This document shows positions 15,930 to 61,629 of a stretch of 64,000 nucleotides of DNA, one piece after another (within the stretch, counting starts at the first letter, position 1; each line of letters begins with the position of its first letter). The notes under the pieces are model-generated. The model saw nothing but the letters and a program-made list of their open reading frames with translations. It had not been told where the DNA came from and did no database searches. Source of the stretch: Chloroflexota bacterium (lineage in GTDB: Bacteria > Chloroflexota > Anaerolineae > 4572-78 > J111); the NCBI GenBank assembly GCA_016860845.1, contig BOKF01000036.1:24700-88699 (forward strand), in the 5' to 3' direction. Made by a program: the position numbers and the translations under genes.

Positions 15930-15937
15930 ATGTTACT

Positions 15938-19185: not shown

Positions 19186-19229
19186 TATAGTGGAGTTTCA
19201 ATGACTCAAAACCTTACTACGAAAGTTAT

Positions 19230-43803: not shown

Positions 43804-44577
43804 CTAATTAACCAGGTGACCCTTAACGATAAGCCGTTCGAGATAGCGGCCTTCTTCACTGCTCCAGTTGTTGCAGGTGATGAGTGTAACCTGTCCGGTA
43901 TTGGTGGGGTAAGTAACGTCAATGGCTGTCCGGTCAACGGTCTGAAAGTTATCTATCATATAGTTAAAGGCCTGGTCGCCATAATAAACCGTCACCATAT
44001 CTCCAGTCGTCAACTTTCCCAGGCCCGCAAATGGCCCATAGACGCCTGCGGCCAAAGTCACGTGTCCGGCCAAAACAATATTGCTGTTAGAACCGGGCGG
44101 GGCAGTACCCTCTAAATGGCCGACTGCCTGACCGAGATGGTCAACTTGCCATGTCTCATTTTGAATGGGCGCCAGCACTACCGAAGCATCCACGCCAAGC
44201 TTGGGAATGACTACCCGGGTGGCGACACCTTCAAGCGTGATCGAATTGACCGAGCCGGTGGGTAAGGCAAACCCCAATGCCTGTTCGACAACACTTTCCG
44301 TTGTTGCCGGCGGAATTGGAGCGGCTTCCGGTACAGCTTCCGTTGCCGGGGCTTGAGGTGCAGTGGGGGCAAAGTCCCCCGCAGCAGACTCCCCAGGCGT
44401 GACCTGGGCTACAGACGTCGCCAGAGGGGCCAACGGAATAATCTTAATAATTCGCGATTTCTCCTCCGGCCGGAGCAAAAACCAACAGGCCATACTGGTC
44501 AGCACTACAGCAACGGCACAGCCAAGCAGGAGAAGAGGGCTGGCAATCCCTACCACAGCCATTAGTTTGCGTTTCAT
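43804..44577 (-). CDS. sortase (class E/F-like)
   Basis: 257 residues from ATG 44577 (an ATG at 44583 is also in frame; GGGGTG lies upstream). One N-terminal membrane helix (about 5-35), a Pro/Ala-rich linker (50-95), then the sortase barrel. Catalytic residues: H172 in LAGHVTLAAGVYGPF, C235 in TLITCNNWSSEEGRYLE and R248. The Cys is followed by NNW and not by the CYP or CTP seen in other classes. It is the sortase nearest to the surface-protein genes at 54161, 55483 and 58849 and is the likely transpeptidase for their LPETG/FPETG signals. Confidence 0.9.
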   Translation of the reverse strand: MKRKLMAVVGIASPLLLLGCAVAVVLTSMACWFLLRPEEKSRIIKIIPLAPLATSVAQVTPGESAAGDFAPTAPQAPATEAVPEAAPIPPATTESVVEQALGFALPTGSVNSITLEGVATRVVIPKLGVDASVVLAPIQNETWQVDHLGQAVGHLEGTAPPGSNSNIVLAGHVTLAAGVYGPFAGLGKLTTGDMVTVYYGDQAFNYMIDNFQTVDRTAIDVTYPTNTGQVTLITCNNWSSEEGRYLERLIVKGHLVN

Positions 44578-44627
44578 GCACACCCCAGGTTGCTCAAGTT
44601 AGTCATTTCCAGCAACTATACCAGCTC

Positions 44628-44636
44628 ATTATACCA
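44628..44636 (-). promoter_or_regulatory. extended -10 promoter of the second sortase gene
   Basis: TGGTATAAT on the minus strand (perfect extended -10), 51 bases before the start; the -35 region is not conserved. Confidence 0.5.
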
Positions 44637-44721
44637 TGCAAACCGCTACATACCGAAAATTTTTGTAGTTTTCTGGAGAGAAAGGTATCTGATATTCACC
44701 TGTAAATGGCGGTCAGACATG

Positions 44722-47682
44722 TCACTGGCGGGTGATTAAGGGTAGATAGAGATGATCTGTGTAATTGATAGGAGTTACCGTCAGGTGTAACTTGAGAGCG
44801 GGGTCGCCAAAAAGGGTCATTGTATCGAGTAAATCCAGATGAAACCCGGTCGCATACAGCGCCGACTTACCGGCTAAAACAGCAGCACCCAATTTTGTTT
44901 CCCCTTGTGCCATGACAGCTTGAAGATAACCTGCTCGGAGGGATGTATGCCCGGTAGGGAGGCCCAAGCCGGTGCTGCTCCACACGGCGATGGCACCCCC
45001 CCCGGCCTGACGCAGCAGGCTTTCATCAAGCGTTGGGTATTGCGGGTGATGAAAAAAGCCGGTAAAGCAGGTCATTTCTAAGATTACCGGCAGGCGGTCC
45101 CAATTGTTCAACGAGCTAATATCATTCAGGTGGAACAGGGAGTCAAAGTCCCACTGATGCCAAGAACTATGACCGTGAAATGTAATCAAGCCTGCTCCAT
45201 TATTAAAATAGGCCAACAGATTACTTCGAAAAGTACTTACATTGGTATATACATAAGGTTGGCCTGTAGGAGCGTCATCATAATATAAACGGTTACCCCG
45301 AAACGGGCTTTGAACCAGATTATACCCCTCGTCTGCTTCGGTACGAAAAATGCCGTAGGTTTTTGTGTGATTGTTTGTGTGATCGGCAGCCACAAAAAGC
45401 AGGTTGGCATTCCAATCACCTGGAGCAGGATTTGTTTCATATCGGATAACTTTGTTCACAATCGTGGTCACCTCAGCCGGGGTGTTGGCTGAGAAGCGGC
45501 CAATTAACATGTCGGGCAGGTTATCACTGCCCGCCAACATGACCAACCGGTTATCGGCGGCGGTTTCACCCCAGTAGGGATCAACTTGGGCCAGATAGGG
45601 CGGCATGAGAGTTGGAGGGTTGAATCCACTGTGATTCTTGAAATCATAACTACCGTCGCCTACCAGCAGGACATACAAGGGAGCCGGGTCTGGCCAGGCG
45701 GCGTAGGCATGCTGCAAGAAAGTTTTTATCGCCTCCGCATCCATACGACCCTGGCCATAAGTGTCGTAAATGGCCTCCACATCCACCGTGGTCACCCGTA
45801 AACCCTGCCCGGCGCGATAGGCGGCCAGGGGGGCAACAGCCCCGGCCAGAGTGGGGGGAGTGATGATGATATAGTCGGCCCCGCCGGATGGATCACCGGC
45901 TACTTTAGCCGGGCTGATCGAGAGGACAGTTTTAAACTGCGAAGCAGGTACAACCAGATAAGTGGCCGGACTGGCGCTGGCATCGCCAAGCGTCAAGGTT
46001 GACCCGGCCAGACTAAAGCCGGTTACCTGCTGTGGTACAAGAGGGTTAGTCACATCGTACACTGTCAGGGCGCCGCTCCAGCCGGTGAGGGTATAGCTTT
46101 TGCGGCCAGCTTCTCCCTGAAATCGTAACTGGCCGGTGGCGGCCTGGTTGGTTGGGTAGGTAATCGCCATTGCTTCGAGCCACGTCCCCTCAACAGACGT
46201 GCCGCTTCCTGGCAGGGACAAGTTGATCTGATTAGAGCCGTTGAGCAGTACACTGCTGGCGATGGCAAAGGTGGCGGTAATCGCCTGTTTGCCGTTCCAG
46301 CTTATGTCACCCGCTGTCGCCCCGTTCACCGTGGCTTTCACTTTATGATCCGGGTTTTGAGCTGGATCTGTGTAGCCTTGCAGCCACAAGGTCAACGTCG
46401 CATTGGGTCCAGAAGCAAGAGGCTTGGTAACCTGAATCGTATAAGTCCGGCTGGGTTGGCTGGGGAGAAACAGTTTATCCCAGTACCAGTAATCGCCCTT
46501 GTGCCCCGGATATAGCGGATCATAATAGCCGTTGGCTTCAGCCGTGACGACGCGCCAGGCTGTCCCCGTGGGTAAGCCCGCCGGGCTACCCGAATGGCTG
46601 CTCATGCGCAGCCCATTAGCTCCCCCGTAACTCAGAAAATAGATATCGTAGTCAACGTAGCGGCTGAAGGCTGGTTCGGCGTAAAACAACAGCCGGTCTC
46701 CCGGATGGAAGACGCCATCCGCCTCGCCTTCGACGAGGATGGCTACTTCCTGGCGCGGGTAACCGTGACTTAATTTCAGGGTACGTGGGTCCAATGTAGT
46801 GACCGGCAGCCCGGCATTTTGCAGATCACTGTAAGTCAGGGCGTAAAGACCAGTCTCAGCCACTTTTACCTTGAAAGCTGGGCCGGTTGAAGCGGCGCTC
46901 ACACTCTGTTGGCTGAGGCTCCCTCTGGCCAAGTCGCCCGTCCATTGAGCCGCCTCTGGATTAAGCAAGATAGGTTGCAGCGCCTGCGCCAATGGGTCGG
47001 TTACAGCTTGCCCGCTCAAAGCCGAGGCAGATTGGGCCGGCTGGGTAAAAGTGATTTCCAGGCGAATGAAGCGAATGACTTCCATCTTGCCGCCGGCCGG
47101 GTTGACCCGCAAAGGATAGATGGTCAGAGCGGCTATGCGCCGGTCGCGCAGTTGCTGGGGCGGGCCGAGTTGAGCGACATCGGCTGGGTAGAAAGTATCC
47201 GCAGCATAGACGGCGGGATCAGGTTGCCGCACCGTTAGTTCTGATTGGAGGGAGAGAGGATCAATTTCAGTGGGCGAAAGCTGGACAGGTTGCGGCGATG
47301 GGGCCGGCAAGGGTACAGCCGGCAGTGAAACCATTTCTCGCTTGACTTCCACCACGCGCAGTCGAGCCTCGCCGCTGGGGGGCAAGCCGATCAAGCCGCT
47401 GTGCAACGGCAGTTCAGGATAGCCAGGTTGCGCCGAAAGCGAGGTGGATGGCATCCGTAGTTGGCTGTACTCACTCCCGTCCAAGCGAATATCAGTCAAG
47501 GAAAAAGCCGGAGGAGTCCAGGTGAGCGTTATGCCGGTTTCATTTGACTCGATGAAGGGTTCCAGGGGGTTTTGGGCGCTGACCGAAGGGGTTGTAACCA
47601 AAAAGAGGCCGAGCAAAGTAAGAAGACTCAGCCGATCCAACTTTTTTAACAGAGCCGATTTCTTTTTGGCCATCGTTACCAT
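44722..47682 (-). CDS. secreted C25 (gingipain-type) peptidase with YLPL tail
   Basis: 986 residues, start ATG 47682 with AGGAGG 4 bases upstream. Signal peptide at 1-36 (RLSLLTLLGLFLVTTPSVSA). A propeptide-like N-terminal region resembles gingipain propeptides; the C25 catalytic domain (about 610-960) contains DYIIITPPTLAGAVAPLAAY, LYVLLVGDGSYDFKNHSGF, H838 in ITFHGHSSWHQW and C872 in LEMTCFTGFFHH. Caspase-fold peptidases of this family process surface proteins. The protein ends in DHLYLPLITRQ, a tail like that of the adjacent giant protein. It may mature or turn over products of this locus. Confidence 0.9.
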   Translation of the reverse strand: MVTMAKKKSALLKKLDRLSLLTLLGLFLVTTPSVSAQNPLEPFIESNETGITLTWTPPAFSLTDIRLDGSEYSQLRMPSTSLSAQPGYPELPLHSGLIGLPPSGEARLRVVEVKREMVSLPAVPLPAPSPQPVQLSPTEIDPLSLQSELTVRQPDPAVYAADTFYPADVAQLGPPQQLRDRRIAALTIYPLRVNPAGGKMEVIRFIRLEITFTQPAQSASALSGQAVTDPLAQALQPILLNPEAAQWTGDLARGSLSQQSVSAASTGPAFKVKVAETGLYALTYSDLQNAGLPVTTLDPRTLKLSHGYPRQEVAILVEGEADGVFHPGDRLLFYAEPAFSRYVDYDIYFLSYGGANGLRMSSHSGSPAGLPTGTAWRVVTAEANGYYDPLYPGHKGDYWYWDKLFLPSQPSRTYTIQVTKPLASGPNATLTLWLQGYTDPAQNPDHKVKATVNGATAGDISWNGKQAITATFAIASSVLLNGSNQINLSLPGSGTSVEGTWLEAMAITYPTNQAATGQLRFQGEAGRKSYTLTGWSGALTVYDVTNPLVPQQVTGFSLAGSTLTLGDASASPATYLVVPASQFKTVLSISPAKVAGDPSGGADYIIITPPTLAGAVAPLAAYRAGQGLRVTTVDVEAIYDTYGQGRMDAEAIKTFLQHAYAAWPDPAPLYVLLVGDGSYDFKNHSGFNPPTLMPPYLAQVDPYWGETAADNRLVMLAGSDNLPDMLIGRFSANTPAEVTTIVNKVIRYETNPAPGDWNANLLFVAADHTNNHTKTYGIFRTEADEGYNLVQSPFRGNRLYYDDAPTGQPYVYTNVSTFRSNLLAYFNNGAGLITFHGHSSWHQWDFDSLFHLNDISSLNNWDRLPVILEMTCFTGFFHHPQYPTLDESLLRQAGGGAIAVWSSTGLGLPTGHTSLRAGYLQAVMAQGETKLGAAVLAGKSALYATGFHLDLLDTMTLFGDPALKLHLTVTPINYTDHLYLPLITRQ

Positions 47683-47688
47683 AAACCT

Positions 47689-47712
47689 CCTGGAGGGCGT
47701 TAACCCTCCAGG
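47689..47712 (-). promoter_or_regulatory. intercistronic hairpin overlapping the C25 ribosome-binding site
   Basis: CCTGGAGGG (47689-47697) and CCCTCCAGG (47704-47712) form a perfect 9-bp stem with a 6-base loop. On the mRNA the hairpin runs directly into AGGAGGTTTATG, so two bases of the Shine-Dalgarno lie in the stem. No T tract follows, so translational control or processing fits better than termination. Confidence 0.6.
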
Positions 47713-47720
47713 AAACTCTA

Positions 47721-50700
47721 TTACTTGAAGATACGAGGCAGGTAGATCTTCGTTCCGCCGCCTCCGGCAGTGACACTGATCGAGGTGGTTTCAGAATGGG
47801 ACGTTTCAACTCCATTGAAGTCCACATCTACCAGCCAATAGGTATAAGTCTGATTAACCTCTACGGTCGCATCAATGAACTCATAAACAGTACCGCTGAC
47901 CGTGCCCTGCCCCTGCCCCGGCACAAAGCCGATTTCGACGGCATCGGCGAAGTTGCCGGTAGAACTGCGCAGCAAGCGAAAGCCGTAATTGTCGTATTCA
48001 ACCGCCGTCGCCCAAAGAAGTTCTACGCTGTTGCCGGTCTGCTGGCTGGTGAAGTAGAGCAGGTCAACCGCCGTCGGCACATTGGTCAAGACCTCGGTAT
48101 CCTCATCCTCATTGGCGACGTTGTTAAAGACATCATCGGCATGGGTGACTCGAGCCGTATTGGTCATTGAGAACTCGCTGTCCGTCGTGGTCAGGCGGAA
48201 GACGGTAACCAGAGCTGCTGACTGGCCGGGCGCCAGGTCGCCAAAGAAGGTCGTCAGGTCATTCCAGGTGAGCCGGCGATTGACGTTGTCCACCGTGTCA
48301 GCCCGCGGCATACCGCCCACATACTGGACTGGGCCGGTGAAGGAGTCAAACAGGGGTATTTGATCCAGGACACTGGGGCCGGTATTGGTGATGCGAATGG
48401 TGAAGGTAATTAAGTCACCGACGACGCCGGGAGCGTTCAGTTCCTTATCCACCTGGATGCTGGGATCTTCCACATGAGTCGAAACCCTGTCAGTCACCGG
48501 CGGAGTGGTACCGGCCGGATGGTCTCCGGTTGTCACCACCAGGTTACCGTAAGTACCGGTAATTGTAGGCACCGAAACCAGCAACGTGATCTGAGTTCTG
48601 GCCTGGGGGGCCAGACCCGCACCGCTCGTAATGTCATTCCAGACCAATTGTTGACCATTAACTATACTAGGCGGAGGAGTAGCTGTCCCCGGAATAAAGG
48701 TCAGGCCCGCATCCAGGGTGTCGGTCACTCGCACCGGGTTGAGGGTCACATCGCCGACGTTGGTGATAGTGATCGTGTAGGTAACAATCTGGTGCGGCGC
48801 TACCCGAGCGATGTTGATTGATTTGTCAACGGCAAGCCCCAGGTTGATGACGCCAACCGTATCGGTATCACTGGCAACCGGGACCGGGTCGTTATTTTGG
48901 TCAATGGCCGAGACACGTCCTTCATTGATGGTTTCCTGGCCGGGCAGAGTCTGGGTAGAAGCCGCTGCTGTAAAGTTTACAGTTATCGTCAGGCTATTAC
49001 CGGCGGCAATGGGGCCGATGTTCGTCCAAACAATGGAACCATCGTTGTCATTGTTATCTGAAGCCGGGCTGGCGTTATTATAGGTCAGGTAACTGGTATC
49101 ATAGGTATCAATCAAGGTCACAGTGGTTAGCGTGGTGTTGCCAATATTCGCGATCACGATCTGGAACTGGATTGGATCGCCTACCTGGACCGGATCAGCC
49201 GTTACCAGCGTCTTGGTCAGACTCACCCCGGAGAGCGTTACATTTACGATAGCATCGTCGTTGTCGGTCACATCCGGGCCGACCGGTGGCGTGCCCGTCA
49301 CCGTCGCCACGTTGGTGAAGTCGGCCAGCACATTGCTCTCAGTACAGGTGTAGCTGGTCGTCTCATTCGGCCCTAAGGTGCCCAGGGTCGCCACACAGTC
49401 GGCCACCAGTGGGTCGCTGACCGTGACATTGGTCAGGGTGATGTCACCCGTGTTGGTCACGCGAATGGTGAAGGTGACGGTATCGCCGCTGACCACCATC
49501 TGGCTGTCCGGCGTCTTGGCAATCTCGATGGCCGGGGTGAAAACTGTCGTCGGCTCGGTGTCGGAGTTGTTGTTCGGATTGCCGTCCGGCGTGGTCGTGG
49601 TCACCACTGCGCTGTTGGTGATCAGTCCACTGGCCGCTGCGTCCACCGTGACTGTGAAGACAATGCCCCCGGAGGTTCCTGCCGCCAGCGTGGGGGTGAA
49701 CCAGGTCAACGATTGCCCGGTCTGTGTCGGCCCGCTCAAGGTCGGGCTGATGCTGACCACCCCGCCAAAGGTCACACTGGCCGGCAGGGTGTCGGTCAGC
49801 AACACATTCTGTGCCGCCGCCGGGCCATTGTTAGTGTAAACTAGGGTGTAGGTCAGGATACCTCCCGCAGCCACCGGGTCAGGATCATCAACCTTGACAA
49901 TGGTCACGTCGGCCGGTTGGTATAGGCCGGCATCCACATTAGTAATGACCTGGCCTGCACTGACCGGGAAGGTAGCGGTTCGGCCTGTAGCCGGGTTGGC
50001 ATCGCTGTCCAGATTGTCATTGCCGCCCTGATCCACTGCACTAAAGGTGTAGGTCGCCGGGCCGGTGAACTGGACAGAGTACGTCCCCGAGACGACATTG
50101 GTGAAGGTGTACAGCCCACTGGCATCCGTCGTCACCGTCTGCACCGGGGTGGCCCCCAGATAGAGGGTTACGGTGATACCGCTGATACCCGTTTCGCCCG
50201 CGTCCTGAATACCGTTGCCGTTGGCGTCGTTCCAGACAAAGTCGCCAATGGTGGCTAGCGGCTCAACCTGGGTTGGCTCGTCATCGGTGTTGTTATTGGG
50301 GTTACTGTCCAACGTGGTCGTGGTGATTGACACGCTATTCGTAATAGTTTGGGTCACGTTAGAGCTAACCGTCACCGTAAAGACGAGGTTGCCGGAAGCG
50401 CCCGCCGCCAGGGTCGGGGTGAACCAAGTTAAGAAGCGGCCGGTTTGTGTCGGCCCTGACATAGCCGGGTTTTCGCTGACCAAGCCACCGAAGGTGACGC
50501 TCAACGGTAAGGTGTCGGTAATATAGACATTTTGAGCCACCGCCGATCCGTTATTGCTGTAAACCAGGGTGTAGGTCAGTACTTGGCCAGCCGTAACCGG
50601 ATCAGGACTGTCGCTCTTGGCGATGGCCAGGTCGGCCACCCCAATCGTGTCAGTGACGATAGCCTGCAACGGGTCAAGCTGCTGGTCGCTGGTCACCGAG

Positions 50701-53700
50701 GCAATATTCTCGATCTCAGTCAGGCCGGCCGGGAGTGGATTCGTTACTGTGACCCGGTAGGTGACGGTCATCACGCTGTTAGCAGGCAGATCAAAGTCAT
50801 CTGCGGCGACCAACAGGGTGGAGGGCACACCGTTCATCAAGTCTGAATTCACGCCACCCGGAATGTTATCTTTGGTAAGATTGGTAACAGCAGGAAATAT
50901 ATAACATTGAATGAGAACATCATCGAAAAATACCTGATCAGATCCTCCCATATTGGCAGAACTCAGCAATTGGATACGTGTCTGATTACTCAACCAACGA
51001 GAAATATCTGCACTATAGGGCTGGTTCGTTCCATCATTGGTCGGCCCCGCGAAATCAGTCAGTATATCCGTCAATGTTCCTGATGAACCAATACTTAAAC
51101 GAACATAATCATTTGCATCATCTAAGCCAACCCGTCGGTAGACCAAGCTTAAAGTTGCGGCATTACAGGAAGAAAGGTCAACATCTCGCCGAACACCTTC
51201 ACCCCCATTATCATTGTCCTGAATTTGGAGTTGGTTACCTACTACTTGGACATCACCCGCGCCAGCACCATCCGCTTCCCCCACTTCAATCCAGTTTCCT
51301 ACCCAAGTAGGGTCAGTAGCGCCATTACTATCTTGATTGCCAGTAAAGACACCGTTGGTATTGAAAGCGTCTCCTACTGTGCCCAATAAAACAGTTGGGG
51401 TGAAACCCACGACAGATGTACTTTGCGGCACATAAGTTGTGCCTATGGGCAAGGCATCTGCCACAATAATATTGGTTTGGGGAGAAGTGCCGGGGTTAGT
51501 GATAACGATGGTGTAGGTAATCGTATCGCCGGGATTGACCGGGGCGCCGCCGGCGCTGGAGGTTTTTTGAAGCAGCAAGTTGACCACCGTGACATCTTCG
51601 TCAGACTCAGGGTCTTGGCCTGAGGGGGTATGGTTGTCCTGGCCCGCAGTTCCGACATCGTCAACAAGACCGGTTTGGGTTGTGCTGGCTCTGGCCGTAT
51701 TATCGTAAGTATCTGCCGTCACGGTAAGCGGTATGTTTACTCTGAGGGTAATGGTCAGGATGGCAAGCGGAGCGATGTCCCACCTGCCCCAGGACAACGT
51801 GGTGGCCCCCACGGCCGGGGTGGTCGTCGCCGTACGGGTCACCAACCCGCTGCTTGAGACGGTGCTGGCGGCATAGGTGAAGCCGCCCGGCAGGGTATCG
51901 CTGATGACCAAGTTGGTCAGAGGGGCCAGGTTGTCAATGTTGTTTAGAACGATGGTATAAGTAGCGGATTGGCCGGCCCTCACCACAGGGGTGCTGGTAT
52001 CTTTATCAATGGTCAAGGGACCGATAAACACCGTGTCACAGTCAGAGGGGTTGAAGGTATTACCGGCGATGACTCCCGAAGCCTCGGCGCAGTTTTGGTT
52101 GTATCCCGCCGGTACCCCCGCCATTGTCTGCATCTGAAAGATCACCCTGACCATATCGTTGGGATTTAAATTTGGCTGCGAACTGAGGTTCCAGGTCAGG
52201 TTCTGGCCGGCGATGGCAGGATTGTTAGCCAGTACGCCGGTGGGCAGGCTGATGGTGGTACTATTTGTTACATAAGCCCAGGATGAGGGGAGGGTATCGG
52301 TAATGATGAGATTGCTCATCGTAAACGGATCGCCTGAGTCTAGCTGGTAAACAGGAACAGCCAGGGTAACGGTAGCCACCTGCCCGGCGCCCGGGGGGAG
52401 CGTGGAAGGCTCGATGGTTTTGGTCATACCGACGACTGCATCCATCCATTCAATTGGCAAGGGCAGGGTGGTGTAACCCATGTCCAGGTAAGGGGTGCCG
52501 ATCGCAGCGGTATCGGCATCCTCCCCCCACATCAGGGCGAGAGGGCCGGTGGCCCAGATGTGCATGCCGGTGTTATCGTTATCAGGGTCAAAGATTTTCT
52601 GGACCTGGAGGCGATTGAGGGTATAGGTAGCATCAACCGTGCCGTTGGTCGGGCTGTAGTCTACGTAAACAATCGTTCCATCCTCAACCGGAGTTACAAA
52701 CACCGGCGAACCGTTCTCGGTCGGGGGGCTATTACTGCTGCCCGGAGCCCACCCCAGAAAATATTCATCGTCGAGAATATAGGCCGGGACCAGGTCAAAA
52801 CCCCAGTCGTAATCAAGATCTTCGGTATCAGCGGTACCAATGGCCCAGAATTTTTCAGTTGAGATGAGGTATACCCCGGAGTCATTCGGCACCAGGCGAT
52901 TTGCCGCCGCCGGGTCCGAATAGGCGATCGTGTTGTAGGCGGGAACGTTGAAACTACCACTACCGCTCAGGTCCTGGTATTGAACGGTAATAGGGGTGGG
53001 ATTAGGGTTATAGATGTAGAGGTCAGTATCATAGCCAGCGTTACTAAACCCTTCGACCGGGCTGTAATACTCATTATCCCACAGCGGCGAAGGCAGGGCG
53101 CTGTAACTATTAATCCAGGATGAAGCACCGGTGAATGGCCCATCACCCGTAATAAATTGAACCTGTACCGGCAGGGTACTGGAGATAACCGTCCCGGCAT
53201 CAATGTGATAAAGCTGGGCCACCTCACCTTCGTTCAAAGTAACGTTGACCTCAATGCCGGCCGTGCCGGGGTCGTCAATGGTAACGGTATTGGTATTGTA
53301 AGCCGACTGAACAATAACATAGGTCTTGGCAAAATCAGCGTAATTGGTGGGGGCGCCGGCTAAATCTTCACCGACCGGAATGGTATAGTTAACTCGGTAG
53401 GGTTTGGTGGGTAAGATTTCCCAGGCCTGGGCAAAGACGGTTCCGATCGATTCGGGCCAATAGGCTGCGGTTACGACCACCGGCCCGCCGGCGGTATAAA
53501 TGCGGTCCCGGCCGTCATAACACTTGTTAGCTATTGGGCTACTCCCGGCCCCACAGTTGGTTAGTAAGGCCGAGTTAATGCCGGTGGTTGCGCGGGGGAT
53601 GGGGATGTTTCTACCCTCAAATCTTTGGACATTCCCTTCGTTAATGGTGTATTGTTCACTGCTGGCCTGCACCGGATTAAGTGGGTTAGCCTCGTAACCA

Positions 53701-54074
53701 TCTTCCCAATGATCATAATAGAGGGTGGTGGCATCGGCGGAGGCGGTCACCGCAATGATAGTCCGCAGCCCCTGAGCTTCTAGCAGGTCAGGATTATTGT
53801 CAATGTCTTGGAAAATATCCCATAATTGTTGGGCTGGCCCGGGAATGTAATACTCGCTGTAGCCGGTATAGGATGATCCGGCTTGCACCAGCGCAGGAGA
53901 AGGGAGCAAGAAAAAGAGCGCTGCCAGAACAATTCCCGATGCAATAAGGTATAACGCCGGAGAGAAGCGCAGGGTAAGCCTGGTTGTCGCCAACCTGCCC
54001 AGAAAGCGGCCCAGATGGAAAAAGCCAACAATTCCTGCACTGAGAATAAGGAGAGAGAAGAATAGTTCTGTCAT
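47721..54074 (-). CDS. giant surface protein with DUF11 repeats, SdrD_B domain and YLP tail
   Basis: 2117 residues from ATG 54074 (GGAG 6 bases upstream; the frame opens at 54086). Two N-terminal hydrophobic helices (about 2-20, 38-62) are followed by a conserved N-terminal region (about 65-540) with LYYDHWEDGYEANP and AQAWEILPTKPYRVNYTIPV, shared with the products at 55483 and 58849. Then come about nine DUF11-type beta-sandwich repeats (each with TYTIVxTN and DTLPxG motifs), a MAM/lectin-like insertion (about 890-1063), an SdrD_B/Cna_B-type domain (about 1273-1386; GDFVWNDANGNGIQDAGETG), further DUF11 repeats, and a C-terminal beta-sandwich (about 2000-2110) ending KIYLPRIFK. No LPXTG signal. 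Likely a cell-surface adhesin or sheath component. Confidence 0.88.
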   Translation of the reverse strand: MTELFFSLLILSAGIVGFFHLGRFLGRLATTRLTLRFSPALYLIASGIVLAALFFLLPSPALVQAGSSYTGYSEYYIPGPAQQLWDIFQDIDNNPDLLEAQGLRTIIAVTASADATTLYYDHWEDGYEANPLNPVQASSEQYTINEGNVQRFEGRNIPIPRATTGINSALLTNCGAGSSPIANKCYDGRDRIYTAGGPVVVTAAYWPESIGTVFAQAWEILPTKPYRVNYTIPVGEDLAGAPTNYADFAKTYVIVQSAYNTNTVTIDDPGTAGIEVNVTLNEGEVAQLYHIDAGTVISSTLPVQVQFITGDGPFTGASSWINSYSALPSPLWDNEYYSPVEGFSNAGYDTDLYIYNPNPTPITVQYQDLSGSGSFNVPAYNTIAYSDPAAANRLVPNDSGVYLISTEKFWAIGTADTEDLDYDWGFDLVPAYILDDEYFLGWAPGSSNSPPTENGSPVFVTPVEDGTIVYVDYSPTNGTVDATYTLNRLQVQKIFDPDNDNTGMHIWATGPLALMWGEDADTAAIGTPYLDMGYTTLPLPIEWMDAVVGMTKTIEPSTLPPGAGQVATVTLAVPVYQLDSGDPFTMSNLIITDTLPSSWAYVTNSTTISLPTGVLANNPAIAGQNLTWNLSSQPNLNPNDMVRVIFQMQTMAGVPAGYNQNCAEASGVIAGNTFNPSDCDTVFIGPLTIDKDTSTPVVRAGQSATYTIVLNNIDNLAPLTNLVISDTLPGGFTYAASTVSSSGLVTRTATTTPAVGATTLSWGRWDIAPLAILTITLRVNIPLTVTADTYDNTARASTTQTGLVDDVGTAGQDNHTPSGQDPESDEDVTVVNLLLQKTSSAGGAPVNPGDTITYTIVITNPGTSPQTNIIVADALPIGTTYVPQSTSVVGFTPTVLLGTVGDAFNTNGVFTGNQDSNGATDPTWVGNWIEVGEADGAGAGDVQVVGNQLQIQDNDNGGEGVRRDVDLSSCNAATLSLVYRRVGLDDANDYVRLSIGSSGTLTDILTDFAGPTNDGTNQPYSADISRWLSNQTRIQLLSSANMGGSDQVFFDDVLIQCYIFPAVTNLTKDNIPGGVNSDLMNGVPSTLLVAADDFDLPANSVMTVTYRVTVTNPLPAGLTEIENIASVTSDQQLDPLQAIVTDTIGVADLAIAKSDSPDPVTAGQVLTYTLVYSNNGSAVAQNVYITDTLPLSVTFGGLVSENPAMSGPTQTGRFLTWFTPTLAAGASGNLVFTVTVSSNVTQTITNSVSITTTTLDSNPNNNTDDEPTQVEPLATIGDFVWNDANGNGIQDAGETGISGITVTLYLGATPVQTVTTDASGLYTFTNVVSGTYSVQFTGPATYTFSAVDQGGNDNLDSDANPATGRTATFPVSAGQVITNVDAGLYQPADVTIVKVDDPDPVAAGGILTYTLVYTNNGPAAAQNVLLTDTLPASVTFGGVVSISPTLSGPTQTGQSLTWFTPTLAAGTSGGIVFTVTVDAAASGLITNSAVVTTTTPDGNPNNNSDTEPTTVFTPAIEIAKTPDSQMVVSGDTVTFTIRVTNTGDITLTNVTVSDPLVADCVATLGTLGPNETTSYTCTESNVLADFTNVATVTGTPPVGPDVTDNDDAIVNVTLSGVSLTKTLVTADPVQVGDPIQFQIVIANIGNTTLTTVTLIDTYDTSYLTYNNASPASDNNDNDGSIVWTNIGPIAAGNSLTITVNFTAAASTQTLPGQETINEGRVSAIDQNNDPVPVASDTDTVGVINLGLAVDKSINIARVAPHQIVTYTITITNVGDVTLNPVRVTDTLDAGLTFIPGTATPPPSIVNGQQLVWNDITSGAGLAPQARTQITLLVSVPTITGTYGNLVVTTGDHPAGTTPPVTDRVSTHVEDPSIQVDKELNAPGVVGDLITFTIRITNTGPSVLDQIPLFDSFTGPVQYVGGMPRADTVDNVNRRLTWNDLTTFFGDLAPGQSAALVTVFRLTTTDSEFSMTNTARVTHADDVFNNVANEDEDTEVLTNVPTAVDLLYFTSQQTGNSVELLWATAVEYDNYGFRLLRSSTGNFADAVEIGFVPGQGQGTVSGTVYEFIDATVEVNQTYTYWLVDVDFNGVETSHSETTSISVTAGGGGTKIYLPRIFK

Positions 54075-54160
54075 GTGCGGCTCCAAACGGTGTGTGAAAC
54101 GAAAGATTTGATAAAGTAGAACCCAAAACGATAGCTAGTCTGACAGTTGCTCTGTCCTAA

Positions 54161-54991
54161 TTACAGACGATGTTTTTTAGTTGAGTAGTGAAAGGCAGCC
54201 CATAGGGTTAAGCCAATAACAGCGATGTCTAAAAGGCCGATGAGCAAGAAAGTTGATAAATTCATTTCTTTCTCTAACTGCCCGCCCGTTTCAGGGAAGT
54301 AAGGTGGAGTTTCAACCGCAGGCGGCGGCTCTTTGACACAAGCCAGGGGACATTTGACCCACTGGGTTTCGGGCGCATTTGCTTCTACCACCCCCATCGA
54401 AACCGGGCCGTCGGCCAATTGGGCCTGAAGATCGGCCAGATTGAGACCGCTCACATCCACAACCTGAGCCGTCATAAAGCGAGGACTGCCGGTTAACCAC
54501 ACCTGCCAGCGGCCCGGATAAGGGAGGCTGAAACGGGTGGGTTTCGTGTCGGACAGTTCACCGGCGACGATAAAGTTGGAGCCATCGTGGACCAACTGCA
54601 CCGGCAGCAGCAGTTCGGGCGCGGCAGAGGGTTGAACCAGCGGCGTAAAAAGAGGGGTGGGGATGTCGGACGCGCCGGCCGAGGCCAGCAGTTGAAAGCG
54701 GGGCTGCTGATCGGCCTGGGCGAAGCCGGCGCTGCACTGCAAGTCACAACGATCAATTTGAACGATCACGTAATCGGTCGGCTTATCATCATCCGTAGGT
54801 GTATCGTCGTCGTCGTGATTACTGCCGCCCCCACCACCCCCACCACCATTATCAGGTGGAACCGGGGTGGGGGTAAAGCCGGCCAGAGGTTTGGCCTGAA
54901 CGTCAGCGGGCGAGTTAAGGTGAATGCTCAAGATTGTCAGGATAAAAGGCAGAGCTAAGAGTAAGGGTAGAGATGATTTTAACTTAAACAT
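54161..54991 (-). CDS. sortase-anchored surface protein (FPETG signal)
   Basis: 276 residues. Signal peptide (SSLPLLLALPFILTILSI), a Gly-rich and Asp-rich linker (GGGGGGGGSNHDDDD), an unrecognised central domain (about 70-215) with two cysteine pairs (CDLQC; KCPLAC), and a C-terminal sorting signal: FPETG at 232-236, a membrane helix (LSTFLLIGLLDIAVIGLTLW) and a basic tail KKHRL. It precedes the giant protein gene by 86 bases and has a promoter-like region upstream (55208-55229). It could be an anchoring or accessory partner of the giant protein, which itself lacks a sorting signal. Confidence 0.82.
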   Translation of the reverse strand: MFKLKSSLPLLLALPFILTILSIHLNSPADVQAKPLAGFTPTPVPPDNGGGGGGGGSNHDDDDTPTDDDKPTDYVIVQIDRCDLQCSAGFAQADQQPRFQLLASAGASDIPTPLFTPLVQPSAAPELLLPVQLVHDGSNFIVAGELSDTKPTRFSLPYPGRWQVWLTGSPRFMTAQVVDVSGLNLADLQAQLADGPVSMGVVEANAPETQWVKCPLACVKEPPPAVETPPYFPETGGQLEKEMNLSTFLLIGLLDIAVIGLTLWAAFHYSTKKHRL

Positions 54992-55207: not shown

Positions 55208-55229
55208 AGTATAAAGTGAAAACATTCAC
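55208..55229 (-). promoter_or_regulatory. candidate promoter with CRP/FNR-like palindrome upstream of the FPETG gene
   Basis: GTGAAAACATTCAC (55216-55229; GTGA-N6-TCAC) abuts a minus-strand -10 TATACT (55208-55213), so a bound regulator would cover the -35 region. The half-sites equal those in the array at 43575-43614. It would give a leader of about 205 nt. Confidence 0.45.
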
Positions 55230-55354
55230 ATCACTTAAACCAGTATAGACTAAAATATGAGGGGGATTAAGGGGTGAAGGTCCCATTTTTGTGGGACCAA
55301 TAGTACCTTTTAGGTTGTCCCAAAAGTATCTGCGCCACAAATCGAAGGTACCAC

Positions 55355-55399
55355 CAAAAAATGAGAAGGCTGGAAATTTATCTATCTTCCAGCCTTCTC
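55355..55399 (-). terminator. terminator of the 55483 gene
   Basis: GAGAAGGCTGGAA (55363-55375) / TTCCAGCCTTCTC (55387-55399), a perfect 13-bp stem; on the minus strand followed by ATTTTTTGG. Confidence 0.85.
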
Positions 55400-55482
55400 A
55401 CCCTCTGACACAAAGTCGTTCCCACGCAAAGCGTGGCCCCTGGCGTGGAAACGAGTTTGCCGTGTAAATTATTTACTTTCTA

Positions 55483-58335
55483 TTACTTACGCCGTCTGCG
55501 CCGGAAGAGCCAGGCGCTTCCCAGGCCACCCACTATTGCTAATGCCAGTAAGGCTATACCTGCTTCCCTAGACCCAACCTGGGCTTCTCTAAGACCTGTT
55601 TCCGGCAAGAAAGTAACCGGTGGCAGAACGGTAGCGGAAGGCACGGGGACAACGGCAACAGTTATTGGGGTAGGGGTAGGAGTTTTTTCTTTGTCGCCAT
55701 TGCCTTGACAATCGTCACACGAGGACGATGGTCGGGTGGATGTAGGCGTGGAAGTAGGCGTAGGGGTAGGCGTAGGGACAGCAAAATTTAAATTAACGTT
55801 ACTACTGCAAGTTAATGGGACGGGGCTATTCTGGCGTAAGGCATCCCTGACCGTGACTGCGAGGGAGGTATTGTTAGCCGTGGGCGGCAGTGAACTAACG
55901 ATAAAGCTGATAGTCAGGTTAACGAACTCTGTCGGCTGCAGGTCACCGAAGGTATTGGTAAGATCATCCCAGGTAATCACCCCGGTGGTGGTGATAGTAG
56001 GAGCCGGAACAGCATTGAGGAAAGTTAAATAGCTAGCATTGAAATTCTGTTGCACAGGCAAGGTGGTGACCGTAGTACTGCCTGTATTGGTGATGGTCAG
56101 GCTGAAGGTAACTACCTGCCCAATGCTGACAGGTCCGCTGGTCGGAGCAATGAGGGTTTCAGTAATCTGCAGCACGGGGGTAATGTTACCGGTTGGGACA
56201 AAAATAGTCACTGCATCACCTTGTAAAGGCAAAGACGGTGAACTAGCGCTGGCCCGGTTGATAATAACCGCACTGGCATTGTTAACCGCAGCATCATAGG
56301 TGAGAACACCATCACTAAAACCGACAAGAGGACCAGTGTTAAGGCCGGTCCCGTCGAGCGGATAGGGCGAAATTCCGCTGTTATCTGCCACCGGGAAGCC
56401 ATTTTGGGTAGTTGTATTGGGTATATAAGCTAAAGCAGCGGGCAGCGTATCTGAAATCGTAACGGCATTAAGGAGCGTAGCCGAGTCATTGATATATTGT
56501 AACTGGAAGCGCACGTCATCGCCCACGCTGATGCCGCCGGTGCAGTCAACATCGGTGAGGAGGGTAAAGGTTTTTTGCAGGGCTAGCGAGCGCAAGGGCA
56601 CAATGCTGGTACCGGCGTCAATTGAAGGACTCGCTCGAAAAGCGTTCTGATCTTGCCCCCAAGCAGAGGCAAAGGATGTGCCATCTGGAGTAAATATGAA
56701 TGCCCCGGTCATGTCGCAGTCGGTCGGGTCGGTGATAGATAATTCCTGAAGAGGTAAAAGTGGATAGCCGATCCCCGGCCCTGGATAGGGATCGGCAACG
56801 CCGTCGCCATCGATATCTACAGTGTCTGCGATGCCGTCATTATTAACGTCCACAAAAAGCGTCGTGGCGCTGAGAGAGGTCACGTATATCCGCGACTCAC
56901 GTCCATTATTGTCAAATGGATCAAAATCGGGCGGTTGAGGACAGCCGGGAGAGTTTACATTGCCCAGCCCCAGGCCAATCAACGTTTGGCTGGTTAGGTT
57001 AGCGGTGGGTAATAAAGCGTAGCCCCAATCTTGGACTTGGTTGATATCCAAGGCGGTGATACCGTAGAAATTAGCAGGGGCAGTAAAATGAACCCCGGTT
57101 GCCCCAAGCAGAGGGGCTGGACTCAACGGAAATCGGCTGGTTTGCCCAGCGGGAATAGTGATTACCGTCGTGCCGGTGATGGTTGTCACCGAAACTGGCA
57201 AATCATTTGCATTCGGATTATAGAGCCAGATATCACCGTCGGAAGCGCGGGGGGCCAAATAATCATTGGTCCATTGCTCAAAGGGAACCATAGTAAAACC
57301 GCGTGCTTCATATCTGCTATCGGGGTCGGAGGCAAAAAGATGCACCTGCACCGGCTGATTATTAATGGCTCGCACCCGTGCGCCGGCCAGAACGCCACTC
57401 GGCACGCTTATTTGTTCACCCTGGTCAAGGGTGGGGGTAAACTCAGGTGTACCATCATTGTTCAAATCTATTTCTACCTGCGTATTATTCTCCACGGCTT
57501 GAACATTCAACCCAACCACCTCAAACCCGCCCGGATCACCAGGTCCAGCCCTATTTACGTTTTGGCCAATGGGGATAATGTAATCCACGCCCCATCTATT
57601 AGTAGGGTACAACTCCCAGGCATCAGTATACAAAATGCCCGGAGCATTATTAGGAGGCGTAGGGTCCGCCGTCCAAAAAGTAGTGCTGACGGCAATGGCG
57701 CCACCTACTGAGGTTAACATATCCCCGCCGTCAAAAAAAATCGTCGGGGGAGTCCCCCGTCCCGCTTGCGTTGAAGGGACGGTATTAATGAGGGTTATAA
57801 CCGTGCCTGCCGTAAGAATGTCGTTGGCCGGTATACCCTGCGGCTGGACGCCGGGGGCCAAGCCGGTATCGTTATTGCTTGGATCACCATCTCCCCAGAC
57901 CAGGGTAGTCGTCTGAGTTGGCAACGTGAGATCACCCTCAAGCGCATCCTCCCACTGATCATAATAAATGACGGTCCCATCCCGATTGACCGCAATCGAA
58001 ATAGTTGTGACAATATCCTGGCCAGAGTTTACGGTACCTGCGGATGACCCGGCGTCGAACTGGGCAGCCATAGATTCGGCGGCAAAGGGGATGAAGAAGG
58101 TAAAAGCATCAATCCGTCCGCCGGCTGCACTGCTCTGGGCGACCTGAATGTGCTTGAAGGTTATATTATCGGCATTTGTGGCACTACCATCCGTCGTGAT
58201 AAATGGTAAAAATACTTGATTTCCGAGCTTTGGGTCGGGATCGTCGGCCTTGCTCTGCACAACCAGCCATAAGCCGCTCAAAAACCCTACCATAATCCCA
58301 ACAGCTACCCAGTAGAAATACCTTTTTAATATCAT
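55483..58335 (-). CDS. sortase-anchored surface protein with YYDxWED region and DUF11 repeats (LPETG)
   Basis: 950 residues. A signal peptide (about 1-30) is followed by VFLPFITT (42-48), then a conserved region (about 60-570) with TVIYYDQWEDALEGDLTLP, DAWELYPTNRWGVDYIIPIG, NDYLAPRASDGDIWLYNPNA, DWGYALLPTANL and SAWGQDQNAFRASPSIDAGT. Two or more DUF11-like repeats follow (DDVRFQLQYINDSATLLNAV; PVSIGQVVTFSLTITNTGST), then a Pro/Thr linker and a sorting signal: LPETG at 910-914, a membrane helix and RRRRRK. It is about half identical in layout to the 58849 product. AGGAGG lies 14 bases before the ATG, a long spacing. Own terminator downstream. Confidence 0.88.
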   Translation of the reverse strand: MILKRYFYWVAVGIMVGFLSGLWLVVQSKADDPDPKLGNQVFLPFITTDGSATNADNITFKHIQVAQSSAAGGRIDAFTFFIPFAAESMAAQFDAGSSAGTVNSGQDIVTTISIAVNRDGTVIYYDQWEDALEGDLTLPTQTTTLVWGDGDPSNNDTGLAPGVQPQGIPANDILTAGTVITLINTVPSTQAGRGTPPTIFFDGGDMLTSVGGAIAVSTTFWTADPTPPNNAPGILYTDAWELYPTNRWGVDYIIPIGQNVNRAGPGDPGGFEVVGLNVQAVENNTQVEIDLNNDGTPEFTPTLDQGEQISVPSGVLAGARVRAINNQPVQVHLFASDPDSRYEARGFTMVPFEQWTNDYLAPRASDGDIWLYNPNANDLPVSVTTITGTTVITIPAGQTSRFPLSPAPLLGATGVHFTAPANFYGITALDINQVQDWGYALLPTANLTSQTLIGLGLGNVNSPGCPQPPDFDPFDNNGRESRIYVTSLSATTLFVDVNNDGIADTVDIDGDGVADPYPGPGIGYPLLPLQELSITDPTDCDMTGAFIFTPDGTSFASAWGQDQNAFRASPSIDAGTSIVPLRSLALQKTFTLLTDVDCTGGISVGDDVRFQLQYINDSATLLNAVTISDTLPAALAYIPNTTTQNGFPVADNSGISPYPLDGTGLNTGPLVGFSDGVLTYDAAVNNASAVIINRASASSPSLPLQGDAVTIFVPTGNITPVLQITETLIAPTSGPVSIGQVVTFSLTITNTGSTTVTTLPVQQNFNASYLTFLNAVPAPTITTTGVITWDDLTNTFGDLQPTEFVNLTISFIVSSLPPTANNTSLAVTVRDALRQNSPVPLTCSSNVNLNFAVPTPTPTPTSTPTSTRPSSSCDDCQGNGDKEKTPTPTPITVAVVPVPSATVLPPVTFLPETGLREAQVGSREAGIALLALAIVGGLGSAWLFRRRRRK

Positions 58336-58848
58336 TATTCTGTTACCCGCCTCCTTAAGATATGATGATCAAGTCCAAGCCCATTTCGTCTGTCCAAGGC
58401 TTCTTCCATCAAGGCAGACAAAAGTCAACCCATTATACCCAATGGTTCTCGTTCCTCCGTCTAATCCCAGACAGTTAACCATTCATTAGGCAGTCAGGCG
58501 CTATAGCATTTATACGTATTTAGCTGGCAAAGGTGCGTTTGGCTGGAGTGGGAACGCCTGAGAATGTTGAACACTCTCCCGGCAAACTGTATTGGCTAAG
58601 AAAACGTAGCCAATTTTAATTCTGTTAATACGGACTGTCAAAAAACCACAAGATTTCGTGAAGTTTTTAACACTGTTAACCTTGTTAGATTCACTGATCA
58701 GTACATAACTCTCCAAATTCTTCCGGTACTTCAGCAAGCCAAAAATATTGAGTGGTCTATAGGGTGAATCAATAACATCGCTTAACTTAAGATCAGGTCA
58801 CATTGACAGGGTTGCCAATCGGGCCTCAAATTGACTTGGTTTTGAAGT
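58336..58848. other. 513-base intergenic region between two paralogous surface genes
   Basis: AT-rich and without convincing coding signal; a 75-codon minus-strand frame (58510-58737) has no ribosome-binding site or recognisable product. It contains short GTTAAC/AACACTG words near 58670 and presumably the promoter of the 55483 gene. No confident promoter hexamers found. Confidence 0.45.
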
Positions 58849-61629
58849 TTAACGCTGCTTCTTGCCCAAGTAACTTCCTACTGCTACGATAACTCCCAAG
58901 ATTAACAACACTCTCCCGCTTATAGAAGTCCATTTGTCAGAAAAAGCTTCTCGTGCACCTGTTTCTGGCAAAAAGGTTACCGGAAAAACAGTAGCAGTGA
59001 CCTGAGGCACATAGGCGATAGGTGTAGCCGGGGGGGGAATTGGGGTGGAGGTAGGGGGCGGATTATCAGGTGTTTTGGTTGGGGTAGGCATAGGGGTACG
59101 GGAAGGTGTAGGCGTGACCGTAGGGAATTCCTCGGGCTGAGTACTTACCAGGGCCTTGGCGCTGCAAATTGGCAAAATTGTTCCGTCACTAAGTTCACCC
59201 CCTGAACCAATCGCCTCGCTACTAATATCGGTGACGGAGGGTGGCAGATCATCCCTGACTCTAAACCTGATCGTCAGGCTAAGTGCAGCCCCAGGCTCTA
59301 TATCTCCCAACATATCAGTTAAATCATTCCAGTCGAGCTGTCCCGGGCTGATATTATCAACTCCAGGAGTGGCCTCCCGAAAGATTAAGTGCACGGGATT
59401 AAAGGTGTAGCGCAAGGGAAAACGGGTAATGGGGACGCTGCTGGTATTGGTGATAGTCAGGTTGAAAGTAACCGGCTCCCCATTGGAAGCAATGCCATCC
59501 GCTGGATCGGTCAGAGTTTGGGTAATTCGATAGAGCGGCGGTTGAGCCTGTCTGGCGGTGAAGATGGCGACCGAATCTTCAAGGGTCAGTTCATCGGAGC
59601 GCACATCGGCTTTATTAACAATATCTATGCCATCTTGACGGATCGTTACCTGGAATGTAAAGACCCCCGTTCCCAAGGCGCCAATGAGGCCCAAATTGTA
59701 GCCCCCTTCATCCAAGGCAAAAGGAGTACCGCTGATATTATCTGGAAAAGGGCCGCCATTTAACAGGGTGGTATGGGGGAGATAAGAAACGGACGGGGGC
59801 AGGTCATCAACGATAACCACGTTATTAATGGGCCTGACCGTTTGATTGAAATATTGCAATTTAAACAGAATAGTATCGCCGATATTGACCGTGCCGTTAC
59901 AGTCAACATCATCACTCACCCGAAAGGTTTTCTGAAGGAGCAACGAAGGCAGTGGCACAATTCCGGTACCGGCGTCAATAGAAGGGAGAGCGGGTGAGGC
60001 GTCTTGCCGTTGTCCCCACACAGTTGCAAAGGGCGTGTTATCGGCAGTAAAAAGAAATGCGCCGGTCAAGTTGTGGTCAACATCGGTGATGGATTGTTCC
60101 TCTAAAGCACTCACCGCAAAAGCTCTGTCTTCGGTTGGGTCGAAGCCATCATTATCGTAATCCACAAAGATCGTGGTGTCCCTGGCTGCGGTCACGTATA
60201 CCGGCGACTCATCCCCGTCAGGCGGGACATTCACATTGCCCAGCCCCAGCCCGACCAGAGACTGCGTATCCAGGCGGTTGAATGGCAGCACAGCATACCC
60301 CCAGTCCTGCGTGTCCTGTTCATCAAACGCCGCCAGAACGTAAAAAGAGTGATCCTGAGCTGTAGCAGTGAAGCGTATTCCGGTCGCCGAGCTGAGACCT
60401 GCCGGTGGATATTTGATCGTGGTATTGCCGGTGATGACTATTGTGGTGGGAGCAGCAATAGATGTTTCAACCCTGACCGCTAGATTATCCGGATTAGGGT
60501 TGTAAAGCCAAAAATCTCCATCTGAGCTGCGCGGACTGAGATAATCGTTTGTCAATTGATCCACCGGCACCATCGTAAAGCCGCGCATCTCATAACGGCT
60601 TTGAGGATTAGCGGCGACAACGTGAACTTGGACCGGGGCCGAGGATTTGACTGTTGCCCCAACCAAGACGCTTTCCGGGCCAATCCCTACCTCAGTGCCT
60701 AACTTGGCCCACTGCTCACCCTCGTTGAGTATCTTTGTCTCCTCAAAGATACCATCGGCATTAAGATCAAGCTGAACTTCTGTATTATCTTCAGCCGCCT
60801 GGACATTAAGGCCGACCACTTCGAAGCCCGGCCGTTGATTAGGCCCAGTGCCGGCCAAATTCTCGCCAATGGGAATCTGATACAATGTCCCCCAGCGATT
60901 GGTCGGATACAATTCCCAGGCATCAGTAAATAAGGGGCCAGGGCCAGGCGGGGCCGTCCAAAAGGTTATGCTCACGGCAACCGCCCCGCCTTCCGAGGTT
61001 AAAACATCACCCCCATCGGCACAGAACACTCTAGTAACGCCGCAACTAAACGTGGGGTCACGCGGCAATTCTACAGTATTACGGAGCGTGATAACATCAT
61101 CATTAGGAAGCGCAGCACTGGCCAGGAGGTCTCTGGTAAAGCCGGGCGGGATACCATTAGCCGGATTATCGTCACCCCAAATCTCGGTACTGGACTGGGT
61201 GGGTTGGGTAAGATTGGCTTCCAGGCCGTCTTCCCAATGATCGTAGAAAATAAGGCTGCCTTCTCGATCAACGGCGATGGAAATAACCATAACAATTGGG
61301 TTATTGAGCAAAGAGGGCGGGCGCGGGGGTGGACTGGTATCTGAGAGGCCTACCTCAAACTGATCGTCAAGGAGATCGGCCGCAAAGGGAATAAAGAAGG
61401 TAAAATTATCAATTCTTCCCCCGGTTGAATTAACCAGGGCAATCGGAATAGAATTAGCCGTTATGTTGTTGACATTTCTGGCATTATCATTCGTTGTAAC
61501 AAGGGGCAAATATATTTGGTGGTCCGGTTTAGAGTCAGGATCGTCGGCATTGGTTTGACCAAATAGCCAAAAGCTGCATATCCCTCCCAAGATAGCAGCC
61601 CCCAAGGCCAGACGAATATATTTTTCCAT
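58849..61629 (-). CDS. sortase-anchored surface protein, paralogue of the 55483 product (LPETG)
   Basis: 926 residues from ATG 61629 (GAGG upstream; the frame opens at 61641). A signal peptide (about 1-27) is followed by IYLPLVTT (39-46), the conserved region with LIFYDHWEDGLEANLTQP, TDAWELYPTNRWGTLYQIPI, NDYLSPRSSDGDFWLYNPNP, DWGYAVLPFNRL and TVWGQRQDASPALPSIDAGT, then DUF11-like repeats (GDTILFKLQYFNQTVRPINN; GEPVTFNLTITNTSSVPITR), a Pro/Thr linker and the sorting signal LPETG at 887-891, membrane helix and GKKQR. Local duplication with the 55483 gene is evident, with substantial divergence. Likely substrate of the 43804 sortase. Confidence 0.88.
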   Translation of the reverse strand: MEKYIRLALGAAILGGICSFWLFGQTNADDPDSKPDHQIYLPLVTTNDNARNVNNITANSIPIALVNSTGGRIDNFTFFIPFAADLLDDQFEVGLSDTSPPPRPPSLLNNPIVMVISIAVDREGSLIFYDHWEDGLEANLTQPTQSSTEIWGDDNPANGIPPGFTRDLLASAALPNDDVITLRNTVELPRDPTFSCGVTRVFCADGGDVLTSEGGAVAVSITFWTAPPGPGPLFTDAWELYPTNRWGTLYQIPIGENLAGTGPNQRPGFEVVGLNVQAAEDNTEVQLDLNADGIFEETKILNEGEQWAKLGTEVGIGPESVLVGATVKSSAPVQVHVVAANPQSRYEMRGFTMVPVDQLTNDYLSPRSSDGDFWLYNPNPDNLAVRVETSIAAPTTIVITGNTTIKYPPAGLSSATGIRFTATAQDHSFYVLAAFDEQDTQDWGYAVLPFNRLDTQSLVGLGLGNVNVPPDGDESPVYVTAARDTTIFVDYDNDGFDPTEDRAFAVSALEEQSITDVDHNLTGAFLFTADNTPFATVWGQRQDASPALPSIDAGTGIVPLPSLLLQKTFRVSDDVDCNGTVNIGDTILFKLQYFNQTVRPINNVVIVDDLPPSVSYLPHTTLLNGGPFPDNISGTPFALDEGGYNLGLIGALGTGVFTFQVTIRQDGIDIVNKADVRSDELTLEDSVAIFTARQAQPPLYRITQTLTDPADGIASNGEPVTFNLTITNTSSVPITRFPLRYTFNPVHLIFREATPGVDNISPGQLDWNDLTDMLGDIEPGAALSLTIRFRVRDDLPPSVTDISSEAIGSGGELSDGTILPICSAKALVSTQPEEFPTVTPTPSRTPMPTPTKTPDNPPPTSTPIPPPATPIAYVPQVTATVFPVTFLPETGAREAFSDKWTSISGRVLLILGVIVAVGSYLGKKQR

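Follow-up and report, generated by a model that had tools for sequence, protein, structure and literature searches.

A locus of six genes in a 64,000-nucleotide stretch of the genome of a Chloroflexota bacterium (assembly GCA_016860845.1, contig BOKF01000036.1, positions 24,700 to 88,699; the whole stretch is called the window here) probably directs the synthesis and installation of long surface proteins, adhesins or fibres, in a bacterium of the Anaerolineales. In these proteins a tip formed by a YYDxWED (YYD) domain would be carried on a stalk, with anchoring by a sortase, maturation by a C25 peptidase and retention by a C-terminal YLP tail. The basis of this reading is the domains, anchors, catalytic residues, synteny, gene fusions and tail statistics described below.

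All six genes are read from the minus strand. They are flanked by uvrC (61846-63714), itself on the plus strand, and by the gene of a PocR-type regulator (42749-43507). They encode an LPETG surface protein of 930 amino acids (aa) (58849..61641, the 58849 protein), its 950-aa paralogue, recognized by sequence (55483..58335, the 55483 protein), a 276-aa FPETG protein (54161..54991), a giant protein of 2121 aa when read from a TTG codon, with Met as residue 5 (47721..54086), a C25 (gingipain-type) cysteine peptidase of 986 aa with a C25 propeptide (44722..47682) and a 259-aa sortase (43804..44583). The intergenic gaps measure 513, 491, 74, 38 and 138 bases in this order, so that the FPETG protein, the giant, the peptidase and the sortase could share one transcript. 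The 58849 protein consists of a signal peptide, a YLP string, the YYD domain, two DUF11 modules, a Pro/Thr linker and an LPETG-helix-basic tail. The giant starts with two hydrophobic stretches, which are followed by the YYD domain, DUF11 repeats (eight stretches according to Pfam), one SdrD_B, an Fn3-like domain (WATAVEYDNYGF type, 47757..48083) and a YLP tail.

According to the proposed mechanism, the beta-rich YYD domain would be placed at the outer end of each protein that contains it as a distal binding tip, probably for a glycan or a protein. The Ig-like DUF11 and SdrD_B modules would form the stalk; for GhlA of Litorilinea, also a member of the Chloroflexota, PMC13319060 documents that the DUF11 array forms a filament. 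The sortase encoded at the end of the locus would join the LPETG and FPETG proteins to the wall, and the C25 peptidase would act outside the cell on the same proteins, presumably by trimming them or by removing a pro-segment. As neither the giant nor the peptidase has an LPETG, these two would be held at the surface via their C-terminal YLP tails, which would thus be a second retention or sorting signal.

As claimed in the earlier note, the 58849 protein, the 55483 protein and the giant have an N-terminal region of about 480 residues in common. It comprises approximately residues 68-565 of the 58849 protein (59947..61440), 80-581 of the 55483 protein (56593..58098) and 65-544 of the giant (52455..53894), as delimited by BLASTP and alignment and for the 58849 protein additionally by Pfam and an AlphaFold2 model. 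The regions of the 55483 and the 58849 protein share 50% identity (BLASTP E 4e-161), that of the giant 27% with the 58849 protein (E 8e-46) and 25% with the 55483 protein (E 2e-29). All motifs named in the note are present: YYDHWED, YYDQWED or FYDHWED; AWELYPT or AWEILPT; NDYLxPRxxDGDxWLYNP in two of the proteins; DWGY or DWGF; and WGQD, WGQR or WGED. In a 36-row alignment from many phyla Y98, D99, W101, E102, D103, D174, D177, W412, G413 and other residues are invariant. For residues 28-575 of the 58849 protein AlphaFold2 predicts a well-defined unit of mostly beta structure (pLDDT 86.9, pTM 0.86), and one sub-part of the model is similar to the ASRT sandwich. For this sandwich fold sugar binding is argued in PMC2739507.

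That the region has no name could not be upheld. The IgGFc_binding family (PF17517) just attains its cut-off on a 548-aa piece of the 58849 protein (26.9 bits, cut-off 25.6) and is matched at E up to 1 in 16 of 35 aligned rows, many database homologues carry the PF17517 label, and several are called IgGFc-binding protein by NCBI. The three whole proteins have no PF17517 match at E up to 1. Even in the 58849 piece the match is not full length: profile positions 4-199 of 297 are aligned to residues 216-416 of the piece (about 200 residues), which is less than half of the region, and the YYDxWED block as well as the DWGY and WGQD parts fall outside. Part of the domain is thus already known: judged by its sequence it is a divergent, extended relative of the IgGFc_binding family, with IgG binding being here a family name. 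The family takes its name from human FCGBP. The DUF11 modules, said in the note to follow the region always, do so in 32 of the 35 rows scanned and hence not without exception; two of the 35 rows are window pieces cut near the expected DUF11 start.

A link to C25 peptidases is seen in fusions. In a wider genome scan 196 places were confirmed, of which 80 were kept (79 loci, 47 of them with a complete 3' end). By profile, six of the 79 loci combine the YYD domain and C25 in one frame (L052, L053, L062, L063, L065, L067), and they span Gammaproteobacteria, Acidobacteriota, Actinomycetota, Nitrospiraceae, Lentisphaerae and Chloroflexi. Two further fusions were found in L120 (genome G078) and L121 (G158). 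Pfam, with which all but L065 and L120 were scanned, confirms C25 in L052, L053, L062, L063, L067 and L121, and the catalytic His and Cys are retained in all eight fusions. In L053, L067 and L120 a "WxTATExxN(V/L)GF" module is placed between stalk and C25, and L121 matches the Fn3-like module of the giant (phmmer E 2.5e-5), for which phmmer revealed no match in L052, L062, L063 and L065. The order in L053 and L067, namely YYD, DUF11/SdrD_B, Fn3-like and C25, is that of the window giant plus the C25 protein encoded 38 bp apart. Because of this identical order the two window genes look like a split version of the fused protein. The peptidase of the window itself matches Pfam C25 with 304.9 bits (cut-off 23), and its His838 and Cys872 are invariant across a 49-row alignment.

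The sortase was likewise confirmed, with 84.4 bits against a PF04203 cut-off of 26.6, and contains the expected His (AGH), Cys (LITC) and following Arg (RLIVKG). The models for classes C, D, E and F are not reached (48.5-50.9 bits versus cut-offs of 140-166). As the note had stated, the two smaller YYD proteins end in LPETG, a helix and a basic stretch (58852..58971 in the 58849 and 55486..55608 in the 55483 protein), whereas no such signal could be found in the giant, which is encoded beside the FPETG protein with its own helix and basic end (54164..54298). Sorting helices and signal peptides were assigned by eye; the Pfam anchor model yields 10.1 bits (cut-off 20) for the 55483 protein and no match for the 58849 protein. 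For the FPETG protein neither Pfam nor NCBIfam yields a match at E up to 1.

A homologue search that took residues 50-580 of the 58849 sequence as query retrieved 147 proteins, and all counts of YYD homologues refer to the 120 matches listed, including two proteins of the window. Where an organism is stated among them, it is Anaerolineae, Anaerolineales or Chloroflexi. Although these proteins were found by the N-terminal region alone, 113 of the 120 have an LPxTG motif within the last 60 residues (110 LPETG and one each of LPATG, LPPTG and LPDTG); several of the seven others (P0005, P0008, P0012, P0063, P0079, P0101, P0120) are visibly cut. In genome G001 the order is uvrC, YYD-LPETG proteins of the 930- and 2213-aa type, FPETG protein, giant, C25, sortase and an ABC transporter, which in the window is located four genes further on. 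The orthologues are 98% (uvrC), 90% (58849 type), 87% (FPETG protein), 85% (C25) and 96% (sortase) identical. The G001 giant of 3717 aa has no YYD match but shares the C-terminal half of the window giant. In G002 the sortase (70%) is preserved together with uvrC, two YYD-LPETG proteins and an LPETG giant of 4830 aa. At E<=1e-10 the YYD domain occurs in four of 151 Chloroflexota genomes, one of them G001, and in all four it is fused to or encoded in the same locus as C25 or a sortase; L119 (G086) has YYD domain and sortase in one 2477-aa frame. C25 was found in 23 of the 151 genomes and has a sortase neighbour in at least seven of these. The neighbour was recognized by profile in G001 and L122-L125 and from coordinates in G048 and G057, with G098 and G142 left out of this comparison. 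Among 18 C25 neighbourhoods checked, four contain a sortase by profile (G084, G092, G116, G124).

Sortase domains were also observed in frames of 2490-3620 aa in eight Chloroflexota genomes (G008, G019, G032, G042, G060, G086, G110, G134), as if giants supplied their own sortase. In the two frames read, L119 and L138, the sortase is located at the C-terminal end.

Several observations weigh against a surface locus of this kind. Only four of the 47 loci with a complete 3' end have an LPxTG-type tail, namely L001 and L002 from the same clade and L035 and L039 from Actinomycetota, and the YYD proteins of L012, L017, L033, L036, L060, L072 and L076 end without LPxTG in repeats, which we take to be YVTN-propeller-like. 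Sortases are present in 105 of the 151 genomes and so common that mere co-occurrence says little. No sortase was detected in 14 of the 18 C25 neighbourhoods, with a profile built from few seeds and several neighbourhoods cut by contig ends. In seven of ten genomes (G003-G007, G009, G010) C25 is encoded on another contig or about 100 kb away from the domain, and G002 has no C25 match in its genome, so that the anchored proteins do not require C25. In addition, no solved structure matches the YYD domain by sequence at E<=0.001. The dedicated sortase-linked locus suggested in the note is supported by the LPxTG motifs and the synteny of near relatives and by the fusions elsewhere, whereas the LPxTG link is not general. 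The argument for the sortase rests on fusion and synteny, and the link is strong among near relatives and weaker away from the clade.

The two proteins of the locus without LPETG end in similar short tails, IYLPRIFK in the giant (47721..47747) and LYLPLITRQ in the peptidase (44725..44751). Their G001 orthologues end in IYLPLIFK and LYLPMIARK, and the form common to giant and C25 ends can be written as hYLPhh(x)R/K. Tail-like ends are frequent on Chloroflexota proteins. Among the 120 C25 homologues listed (P0121-P0240), 78 have a loose tail within 15 residues of the end, where 1.0 is expected from shuffling the last 40 residues; 53 do so under a stricter definition, in which Y/F-L-P is followed by two hydrophobic residues and no more than four others. 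These counts are inflated by related sequences. In four of the 53 (P0134, P0137, P0156, P0208) another stretch replaces the C25 end before the tail. Among the rows without a gap at the respective position, the alignment of the peptidases shows conservation of P981 (47 of 48), L980 (41 of 47), Y979 (37 of 47) and R985 (34 of 47), while residues 971-986 of the predicted structure have a pLDDT of about 49 and lie outside any strand. Being conserved yet predicted to be unfolded, the tail resembles a short linear motif.

On the genome level the codon pattern YLPhhxR-stop has 75 matches in 31 of the 151 Chloroflexota genomes, with up to nine per genome; the controls gave 11 matches in 10 genomes (scrambled order) and 34 in 26 (reversed). 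From 33 matches read in context (24 of the 75 and nine from another scan; L086-L118), 29 belong to frames of at least 100 aa, three to short frames (54, 68 and 73 aa), and the remaining frame, incomplete in L107, is long in L108. The 29 long frames fall into 20 BLAST clusters; many of them run beyond the sequence fetched, so that the clustering is based on C-terminal parts. By coordinates none of the 75 matches coincides with the end of a C25 frame among those listed. Four genomes from outside the Chloroflexota, covered by the other scan, have two matches, the frames being 15 aa and 1 aa long.

It was observed that the tail caps unrelated exported-looking proteins in several Chloroflexota. A restriction to this phylum had to be rejected, as 80 of 149 Planctomycetota genomes match the pattern too. 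Out of 20 matches fetched from these, 16 are in frames of at least 100 aa, all of one protein family that terminates in YLPI(F/L)(Q/E/H)R (L139-L154), and four are in frames of 10-41 aa. The tail was also considered as a sortase site (LPLIT, LPFIT) and rejected, since Thr is missing from most tails.

A similar string directly follows the signal peptide of the two LPETG proteins, IYLPLV in the 58849 (61498..61515) and VFLPFI in the 55483 protein (58198..58215). A YLP string is located within the first 100 residues of 27 of the 120 YYD homologues, where 0.27 are expected, and nowhere in the remaining 94,810 residues. In the YYD proteins of L017, L033, L060, L072 and L076 an internal YLP string is found about 320-360 residues from the end. 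L017, from a Caldilineaceae genome, contains two adjacent giants (1-9582 and 9833-19714; 3193 and 3293 aa) with YLPL 327 residues from the end. It is conceivable, if on balance somewhat doubtful, that in many Chloroflexota a C-terminal tag of about eight residues without a helix, hYLP(L/V/I)(I/V)xR, serves for the sorting or docking of exported proteins that are not related to one another. Such a tag would be undescribed and distinct from LPXTG. The same string, which in this locus is also found at the mature N-terminus of proteins with LPETG at their C-terminus, would then always be at the free end and might dock proteins to a shared surface receptor or to one another. A literature search gave no paper in which a terminal tag of this kind is named, subscription journals being largely outside its scope.

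Instead of being a signal, the tail could be just the last strand of the structure or a remnant inherited by common descent. It is short and hydrophobic, the Planctomycetota pattern is mainly the end of the one family, in 16 of 16 long frames, and the strict pattern is limited to 31 of the 151 Chloroflexota genomes. Against this explanation, the 29 tailed Chloroflexota frames fall into 20 BLAST clusters, the tail follows a different stretch in the four C25 homologues, and the end is conserved but predicted to be unfolded. We consider it rather unlikely. A more active role of the peptidase, as a PorU-like transpeptidase which processes and attaches YLP-tailed proteins and thereby provides a sorting route in addition to that of the sortase, is suggested by PorU as the top NCBIfam match (285.5 bits). 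Furthermore, tail and C25 occur together in 17 of the 151 genomes, with 14 having the tail only, six C25 only and 114 neither (Fisher 1.2e-9, uncorrected for kinship and genome size). In PMC4560394 a sortase-like function is proposed for the C25 enzyme PorU, and a conserved Arg is given 32 residues past the catalytic Cys. The score is below the PorU cut-off of 420, no conserved Arg could be found near +32 (from +0 to +62 only R891 at +19 exceeds 30%, with 33 of 49 rows), the peptidase itself carries the tail, and G002, G029 and G164 are tailed without a C25 match. Such a role is thus improbable.

The YYD proteins might also polymerise into a sheath or S-layer-like coat around the cell, the giant serving as scaffold and the YLP string joining the subunits. 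There are two or three YYD paralogues in each locus, and in each class the string occupies the free end, which is the N-terminus for LPETG proteins and the C-terminus for giant and C25. The Pfam matches however include no S-layer family, 93 of the 120 homologues listed (some of them cut) lack the string in their first 100 residues, and the LPETG anchor on almost all copies argues against a self-standing lattice; we consider a coat improbable. A pilus polymerised by the sortase in class C style, in which LPETG and FPETG proteins are linked to one another, would agree with the three sorting signals in this one locus, with the small FPETG protein as a possible base subunit and with the match of the fimbrial model TIGR04226 to the DUF11 region of the giant (80.8 bits, cut-off 30). 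We regard it as very unlikely, as the sortase reaches 50.9 bits where class C demands 160.

As putative wall-anchored adhesins the proteins resemble known systems in parts. Gram-positive LPXTG proteins (MSCRAMM-like, SdrD_B) have a comparable N-terminal ligand-type region, a repeat stalk, an LPETG-helix-basic tail and a sortase in the locus, but the window locus differs in the N-terminal domain, the stalk of mostly DUF11, the presence of C25 and the phylum. With PorU and the gingipains of the T9SS the window peptidase shares C25 domain, propeptide and His/Cys dyad. It differs from them by its score below the PorU cut-off, by the true PF04203 sortase alongside and by a tail of about eight residues instead of a CTD domain. 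The grappling-hook proteins GhpA and GhlA may also be comparable to the window giant. GhlA is reported in PMC13319060 as a giant bead-on-string protein of a Chloroflexota bacterium with 49 DUF11, compared to the eight stretches in the 2121 aa here. For DUF11 frames of 6530 aa (G004) and 7081 aa (G006) the match is confined to the DUF11 part of the query among the matches listed, so that DUF11 giants and YYD proteins look separate.

Sortase, C25 and DUF11 are ordinary parts. For their conserved combination no description was found, and the newest element would be the tail, which may be an undescribed sorting tag. The envelope biology of the Chloroflexota is poorly known, and the locus provides a concrete parts list for apparent wall-anchored surface fibres. 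The fusions in several phyla connect C25 peptidases and sortases with a domain that is widespread but uncharacterised, and a short terminal tag, if true, would help to predict surface-retained proteins in Chloroflexota cells.

Elsewhere in the window a second sortase (PF04203, 104.8 bits) immediately adjoins a MurJ lipid II flippase (12803-15585), and Mur ligase and alanine racemase domains are united within one 846-aa frame (27280-29820). Given these murein genes, an acceptor for the sortases should exist. A 243-aa frame (34725-35456) combines the domains of a TrmO-type tRNA methyltransferase and a type II chorismate mutase.

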